Shown piece by piece: positions 12,618-12,993 of a DNA stretch of 64,000 nt; position 1 is the first letter of the stretch, and every line of letters starts with the position of its first letter. The notes under the pieces were generated by a model, which saw nothing but the letters and a program-made list of their open reading frames with translations, ran no database searches and was not told the DNA's origin. The position numbers and the translations under genes were made by a program. The DNA comes from Oceanotoga teriensis (GTDB taxonomy: Bacteria; Thermotogota; Thermotogae; Petrotogales; Petrotogaceae). Location: contig NZ_QGGI01000010.1 of the NCBI RefSeq assembly GCF_003148465.1, positions 1 through 64,000 of the forward strand, read 5' to 3'.

Positions 12618-12633
12618 GTACAAAATACTGTAT
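12618..12633. promoter_or_regulatory. Candidate YhfZ operator in the yhfZ leader
   Basis: GTACA-N6-TGTAT, one mismatch from the ATACA-N6-TGTAT seen at the two other sites. It lies just upstream of the yhfZ SD, within the transcribed leader, where a bound regulator would block elongation. Confidence 0.5.
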
Positions 12634-12678
12634 TTTTAATTTAAAAAATAAAAAAATAAAAAAAGATTAATAATTACA

Positions 12679-12707
12679 ATAATATACAATTTCCTGTATA
12701 TTATCAA
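12679..12707 (-). promoter_or_regulatory. Promoter of the yhf operon with operator in the spacer
   Basis: On the minus strand TTGATA (12707-12702) and TATTAT (12684-12679) are separated by 17 bp. A perfect dyad AATATACA-N6-TGTATATT (12681-12702) fills the spacer exactly, so a bound protein would exclude RNA polymerase. The same dyad recurs at 12972-12993. Confidence 0.75.
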
Positions 12708-12923
12708 AATTATAATAAATATTTTTGTTTTATCAAAATCAGATTATAAATAATTATAGTTATTTATTTAAAAATAAGTATGATTAACAATGAAAATCTT
12801 CTTTGTATTAATTAAAATAGTTTTATTTTTATTTTTTGAAACTTATTTATTAGCAATCTTTCTAAATATAGAGTATTTTTTATCTATTTAAGTTTAATTA
12901 CCTTTTATTATAAATTATTGGAA

Positions 12924-12951
12924 TTGATTAATATTTTTTTAATTGTATAAT
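12924..12951 (+). promoter_or_regulatory. Promoter of the secreted serine hydrolase gene
   Basis: TTGATT (12924-12929) and TATAAT (12946-12951) with a 16-bp spacer, on the + strand. A second TATAAT at 12995-13000 lies just after the operator but lacks a good -35. Between here and 12707 I see nothing else but AT-rich DNA. Confidence 0.6.
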
Positions 12952-12971
12952 GGAAATTGTAAAAAGAATTA

Positions 12972-12993
12972 AATATACAGTTAACTGTATATT
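12972..12993. promoter_or_regulatory. Candidate YhfZ operator before the serine hydrolase gene
   Basis: Perfect 22-bp palindrome, AATATACA-GTTAAC-TGTATATT. Both 8-bp arms are identical to the dyad in the yhf promoter. It lies about 15-35 bp after the predicted transcription start, a typical roadblock position, and ties this gene to the yhf regulator. Confidence 0.7.

Follow-up and report, generated by a model that had tools for sequence, protein, structure and literature searches.

The yhf pathway spans bacteria from Thermotogota to E. coli, where the yhfS-Z operon of strain K-12 is among those still uncharacterised, and neither its substrate nor a site for its regulator YhfZ was given in the open papers searched. 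In the 64,000-nucleotide stretch of Oceanotoga teriensis DNA analysed here (the window), a yhf operon is faced by a divergent gene for a secreted serine hydrolase, and a first-pass annotation had described three ATACA-N6-TGTAT-type sites in between, predicting a YhfZ regulon that includes the extracellular hydrolase. The locus thus raises the question of whether these dyads are operators of YhfZ, and whether a secreted enzyme is controlled together with the yhf genes.

Three dyads between yhfZ and a divergent hydrolase gene

The yhf operon runs leftwards in the order yhfZ, yhfY, yhfU, yhfT, an amidase-like gene, php, yhfS, yhfX, yhfW and a nagB-like gene, with the following features:

13034..14554, forward strand: secreted serine hydrolase, divergent from yhf (PF00144, E 3.1e-55; signal peptide by reading)
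11675..12601, reverse strand: yhfZ, GntR-like regulator (PF14502 HTH_41 and PF14503 YhfZ_C)
11302..11664, reverse strand: yhfY, PRD-domain protein (PF00874)
10925..11284, reverse strand: yhfU, DUF2620 protein (PF10941)
9626..10906, reverse strand: yhfT, membrane protein, presumed transporter (PF10797)
8492..9571, reverse strand: amidase-signature-like protein, a weak match (PF01425, 25.8 bits, below the cut-off of 27)
7612..8535, reverse strand: php (yhfV), phosphotriesterase homologue (PF02126)
6510..7619, reverse strand: yhfS, PLP-dependent aminotransferase-like enzyme (PF22475, PF00266)
5345..6505, reverse strand: yhfX, alanine-racemase-like PLP enzyme (PF21279, PF01168)
4134..5348, reverse strand: yhfW, phosphopentomutase-like enzyme (NF009049, 609.8 bits, cut-off 254)
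3389..4114, reverse strand: nagB-like glucosamine-6-phosphate deaminase (open reading frame list, translation read; 19 bp after yhfW and co-directional)

The regulator has the architecture of the YhfZ family (HTH_41 plus YhfZ_C, its gene heading a yhf operon) and scores 406.5 bits against NCBIfam model NF041241, which has a cut-off of 260. A yhfZ start at 12616 was replaced by 12601, which is preceded by GGGGGA seven bases upstream and agrees in an alignment with the start in the related genome G007, and the intergenic gap up to the hydrolase gene is 432 bases. YhfX weakly resembles ornithine racemase, and further downstream (21588-25068) the open reading frames were read as a 2,4-diaminopentanoate dehydrogenase-like gene and an OrtA/OrtB-like ornithine fermentation pair.

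All three dyads were located in the gap, with the cores GTACA-AAATAC-TGTAT (proximal, 12618-12633), ATACA-ATTTCC-TGTAT (distal, 12684-12699) and ATACA-GTTAAC-TGTAT (hydrolase side, 12975-12990), and are listed here with the candidate promoters:

12615..12636, reverse strand: proximal predicted YhfZ operator AAAATACA-GTATTT-TGTACAAT, left end at -35 from the yhfZ start codon
12681..12702, no strand: distal predicted yhf operator AATATACA-N6-TGTATATT, exact 8-bp arms, at the yhf promoter start or in a promoter spacer
12972..12993, no strand: predicted hydrolase operator AATATACA-GTTAAC-TGTATATT, at about +14 to +35 of the hydrolase promoter
12709..12736, reverse strand: candidate yhf promoter P1, TTGATA-16-TATAAT, 11/12 consensus matches
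12679..12707, reverse strand: alternative yhf promoter P2, TTGATA-17-TATTAT, 10/12 consensus matches, with the distal dyad in its spacer
12924..12951, forward strand: hydrolase promoter, TTGATT-16-TATAAT, 10/12 consensus matches

The 8-bp arms AATATACA/TGTATATT are identical in 12681-12702 and 12972-12993, and the 16-position pattern that they define occurs at exactly two places in the 2.79-Mb genome, both in this gap. Among 10,000 simulations of random sequence matched to the region (417 bp, 14% GC), 4 produced a pair of perfect 8-bp N6 dyads sharing their arms (P ~4e-4). The loose pattern ATACA-N6-TGTAT by itself is unimpressive in so AT-rich a genome, with ten matches at 0-1 mismatch in the window where five are expected, and 12 exact places in the genome versus six with a reversed control. 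As genome-wide probes, this pattern and a 22-mer allowed three mismatches both stayed at about control level and were discarded as useless. The two one-mismatch sites elsewhere (L123, L124) lie within coding sequences.

Recurrence of the dyad in other genomes

We surveyed the yhfZ leaders of 80 loci from named genomes and of 23 from Clostridiales-order genomes. The window YhfZ as a single query gave no matches in a scan of genome contigs, and a profile built from five YhfZ sequences gave 134. TACA-N6-TGTA was found upstream of yhfZ in 22 of 36 leaders from Firmicutes and Thermotogota (0.37 expected), and TTCA-N6-TGAA in 19 of 24 from Gammaproteobacteria and Fusobacteriota (0.33 expected), each lineage carrying its own arm class only. 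In a core-based scan of the leaders, strong enrichment of the core dyad was confined to the 6-bp spacer, which was not singled out by an inverted-repeat scan using arm length alone. The left end of the dyad lies at -31 to -51 from the yhfZ start in 21 of the 23 Firmicutes and Thermotogota leaders with a strict core, and the proximal site of the window, with its TACA-N6-TGTA core in the range of about 30-50 bp upstream, occupies the most conserved position of all (-35). This site had been labelled a one-mismatch copy, which is wrong, as it falls within the consensus, where TGTAC is as common as TGTAT. Near matches are present in several leaders without a strict core (L053, L144, L157), and no dyad was recognisable in some yhfZ leaders from Erysipelotrichaceae and from several Yersinia and Vibrio. 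The motif search upstream of yhfZ orthologues, which had been proposed as a check, thus shows that the dyad recurs in relatives, and the survey excludes its absence near yhfZ in all of them, the outcome that had been named as counting against the prediction.

A consensus, AAWRTACA-N6-TGTAYNWT, was built from 26 yhfZ-leader sites, mainly of other species, which included the window's own yhf pair and left out the hydrolase site. It matches the 2.79-Mb genome at exactly three positions, namely the yhf pair and the hydrolase site. In 12 other genomes (~39 Mb) a stricter form of it matched 14 places versus none for the reversed control. Each of the 14 belongs to a yhfZ leader, to the junction of yhfZ and yhfY or to the upstream region of a hydrolase from the clade described below. 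The matches in yhf leaders are expected, since most of these leaders had fed the consensus, and the informative part is the lack of matches elsewhere together with the presence at hydrolases. The dyad beside the yhf cluster is very probably bound by YhfZ, the regulator of that cluster.

The secreted hydrolase, its clade and its possible substrate

Within its own phylum the hydrolase gene is unique to this genome, and its near relatives are found in Clostridia, namely in Clostridiales COT-073 (48%) and in G246, G247, G157, G180 and, with two copies, G206 (50-66%). With the window protein they form an eight-member clade (support 98/96) that neighbours E. coli PBP4B and similar proteins. All eight carry the motifs ASVTK, YSD and GHTG (the T of the last varies), corresponding to the SxxK, YxN-like and HTG-like motifs of PF00144 serine hydrolases. 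A dyad lies directly upstream in six of the eight (the window and five others), and a seventh, that of G157, is located inside the yhf operon between yhfU and yhfT, so that seven members have either a dyad or a place among the yhf genes. In COT-073 and G246 the hydrolase is at the head of the yhf operon, and in G180 it is divergent with two dyads, a layout as in the window. The hydrolases of two Clostridium genomes, G247 (one dyad, followed by a second yhfT) and G206 (contig C8, two dyads), are unlinked to yhfZ, as is the other G206 copy (C114), at which the strict dyad was not found. The dyad was absent at all seven PBP4B-side homologues checked, and in distant PF00144 proteins of the same genomes, used as controls, the start region was also without it.

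A clade member is present in five of 225 Clostridiales-order genomes, all five being among the 23 with yhfZ (P 7e-6; physical linkage in three of these genomes accounts for some of this apparent strength). Such repeated occurrence in varying arrangements provides good evidence for the hydrolase being a member of the YhfZ regulon that works together with YhfT. As two same-clade hydrolases keep the dyad even when unlinked to yhfZ, the comparison supports the prediction that an extracellular hydrolase is included in the regulon, and the identification of the dyads as YhfZ operators with such a regulon is strongly supported at the level of sequence. In G007 no such hydrolase is encoded in the genome and the gene divergent from yhf looks like an oligopeptidase, which makes the hydrolase an optional part of the regulon. 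As judged by reading, the hydrolases of G157 and G206 C8 end in sortase-like sorting signals, that of G180 begins like a lipoprotein and the remaining members have signal peptides, suggesting that export is kept while the anchoring changes.

Three further observations were made at these loci. The dyad-hydrolase-second yhfT unit of G247 (L179:7698-10685) lies ~300 kb from the yhf operon, and its yhfT is 75% identical to the window YhfT. G180 encodes a probable sortase-anchored surface protein (L180:9860-10663), whose gene starts beside the first of its two hydrolase-side dyads (10726) and is possibly another target of YhfZ. In Clostridium CF012, an apparent decayed remnant of a hydrolase C-terminus is located between a dyad and yhfZ (L043:8767-9000).

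Since several unrelated bacteria have the same site in front of a gene for a secreted hydrolase, the first step of the orphan yhf pathway is probably extracellular, and the recurrent hydrolase, alone or followed by an additional yhfT, gives the first concrete clue here to the starting compound. Annotation of the hydrolase as PBP4B itself was rejected, as it scores 278 bits against NF002968 (cut-off 385), E. coli PBP4B falls into another clade of the tree, and the active-site loops differ (HTSGLTPWKPT and YSDFSFM in the clade, HSGGFPADPQY and YSDVDYM on the PBP4B side). It does share PF00144 and secretion with the MurNAc-recycling hydrolases of the PBP4B (YfeW)/AmiE type, PBP4B being its best NCBIfam match, and these are encoded with an uptake system (murP), much as the window hydrolase is with yhf; the differences are its own clade, its loops, the sub-cut-off score and the absence of the dyad from the PBP4B branch. 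The MurR-controlled murQP-yfeW operon of E. coli is likewise a combination of a local regulator, uptake and catabolic genes and an exported serine hydrolase (PMC5061867), although its regulator, transporter and enzymes are unrelated to those of yhf.

It is conceivable, if doubtful, that the hydrolase acts on muropeptides in the manner of PBP4B or AmiE, with the yhf enzymes degrading a cell-wall fragment or an amino-sugar conjugate. B. subtilis AmiE, which works on muropeptides extracellularly (PMC5061867), is a precedent, and PBP4B relatives are found with murQP in E. coli, with murP and a DUF871-like gene in Metabacillus (by reading) and with nagA/anmK in Thermomicrobium. The host genome also has a MurNAc-6-phosphate etherase gene, murQ (G000:C22:11623-12459, TIGR00274 above cut-off), but this is away from any YhfZ site, and the separate clade, the different loops, the score below the PBP4B cut-off and the many other substrates of the PF00144 superfamily all speak against a muropeptide. 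A nagB homologue lies beside yhf in three lineages: it follows yhfW in the window (3389-4114) and in a Clostridium MAG (L042:10673-11398), and is also found beside yhf in L138/L175, where in G129 the yhf operon is led by a broken nagB (L175:13640-14318) that has a promoter and a dyad (L175:14358) of its own. This arrangement hints at glucosamine-6-phosphate as a possible end point of the yhf pathway, and together with the PBP4B relatives in MurNAc-recycling clusters it makes an amino-sugar compound plausible. Wall material as the substrate is a tentative proposal. Equally speculative is a yhf pathway in which a small molecule, freed extracellularly by the YhfZ-controlled hydrolase in some bacteria, would give an amino-sugar phosphate for NagB; if true, this would be a hitherto unknown way to break down an amino sugar that is wall-derived or otherwise conjugated. 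Hydrolase substrates can be screened, which offers a route to the inducer.

The predicted binder and its mode of control

The distal dyad had been placed in the spacer of the yhf promoter. This holds for P2 only, and P1, the best-scoring yhf promoter, places the dyad at about +1 to +22, that is at the transcription start; P2, with the dyad in its spacer, is possible as well and would be blocked too. In G007 a counterpart of the distal dyad likewise follows TATAAT at a distance of 7 nt (TATAAT-N7-ATATACA is preserved). A candidate -10 box ends 0-3 nt before the dyad in several Clostridium leaders, and falls on its outer arm in 10 of 17 leaders from Gammaproteobacteria and Fusobacteriota, an arrangement which fits repression by blocking of RNA polymerase. 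We infer that YhfZ is most probably an autoregulated repressor. At the hydrolase gene the dyad is downstream of the promoter, and blocking could be weak there.

The leaders with two dyads (the window, G007, the Clostridium MAG L042 and many enterics) allow for another mode, in which YhfZ would be an activator or dual regulator that binds distally and contacts the proximal site by looping or stacking. The centre spacings of these pairs are 66 bp in the window, a similar 67 bp in L042, 44 bp in G007 and 24 bp in the enterics, or 6.29, 6.38, 4.19 and 2.29 turns at 10.5 bp per turn, which puts the dyads on nearly the same helix face, and with centres this near to whole turns cooperative binding is possible. 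Activation is nevertheless improbable, as a single dyad is commonest in Firmicutes and many dyads overlap or abut a candidate -10 box, an unlikely position for an activator.

Binding by YhfZ is itself a prediction, and most loci also encode the PRD protein YhfY, so a different regulator of the same genomes might bind the dyads with YhfZ as a bystander. We consider this quite unlikely. The association of the site with yhfZ extends over Thermotogota, Firmicutes, Fusobacteriota and Gammaproteobacteria, and YhfY matched PRD only in Pfam, where a DNA-binding domain was not found. The arm class also goes with the YhfZ helix: the residue before the conserved Gly of the predicted HTH recognition helix is R (once N) in all 26 TACA loci and V or L in all 54 TTCA loci, with no cross cases, which indicates YhfZ as the binder, although this correlation is largely confounded with phylogeny and Cetobacterium is the main independent point. 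The Fusobacteriota plasmid, with residue L and TTCA arms, represents a separate lineage. The suggestion that the dyads work as RNA hairpins in an attenuation mechanism was rejected as highly improbable, since, while two of the window dyads fold at -5.5 and -7.1 kcal/mol, the folds of the commonest Clostridium site and the proximal site of the window (-1.3 and -1.7 kcal/mol) are no more stable than those of shuffled sequences, several sites coincide with or adjoin a candidate -10 box, and a terminator was not found in the window leader.

Our preferred reading, in which YhfZ binds the dyads and controls two transcripts, the autoregulated yhf operon and the secreted hydrolase gene, is likely on the sequence comparisons taken together. 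In this scheme, a YhfZ dimer would bind each dyad through its N-terminal winged helix, one TACA/TGTA per half, at the two operators of its own catabolic operon and the one of the divergent hydrolase gene. Without inducer, it would cover the yhf transcription start and block the early transcribed region of the hydrolase gene, and it would be released from the DNA when the substrate, or a pathway product sensed by YhfZ_C, appears. The hydrolase would then free a small molecule outside the cell, to be imported by YhfT (with YhfU) and degraded by Php, YhfS, YhfX and YhfW. As a type, such a system of a local regulator with a small regulon is ordinary, and it is of value for an operator that we did not come across in the papers searched, and for a concrete lead into an orphan pathway. 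A precise predicted operator for two lineages makes YhfZ directly testable, also in E. coli, and allows YhfZ regulons to be read from genomes.

Among known systems, the DNA-binding domain of YhfZ is weakly matched by the CodY-type winged helix (E 7e-6), whereas the effector domain of CodY is unrelated. The CodY box, AATTTTCWGAAAATT, has a layout unlike the YhfZ dyad. E. coli K-12 has an orthologous YhfZ (NF041241) with largely the same genes in yhfS-Z, and like the window it has a predicted N6 dyad upstream of yhfZ, TATCTTCA-AATTCC-TGAAGATA; it differs in the arms (TTCA/TGAA instead of TACA/TGTA), in gene order and in the absence of a hydrolase from the operon. Many enteric yhfZ leaders (L006, L086-L112) contain two TTCA-N6-TGAA dyads 24 bp apart, and many also have a TGTGA-N6-TC-like stretch further upstream which could be a CRP site. 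Finally, many Clostridium yhf operons carry an extra dyad at the yhfZ-yhfY junction, as if YhfZ acted inside its own operon too, at the following positions:

L174:7819, yhfZ-yhfY junction dyad
L175:12538, yhfZ-yhfY junction dyad
L176:9069, yhfZ-yhfY junction dyad
L180:8488, yhfZ-yhfY junction dyad
L182:8459, yhfZ-yhfY junction dyad
L183:13067, yhfZ-yhfY junction dyad
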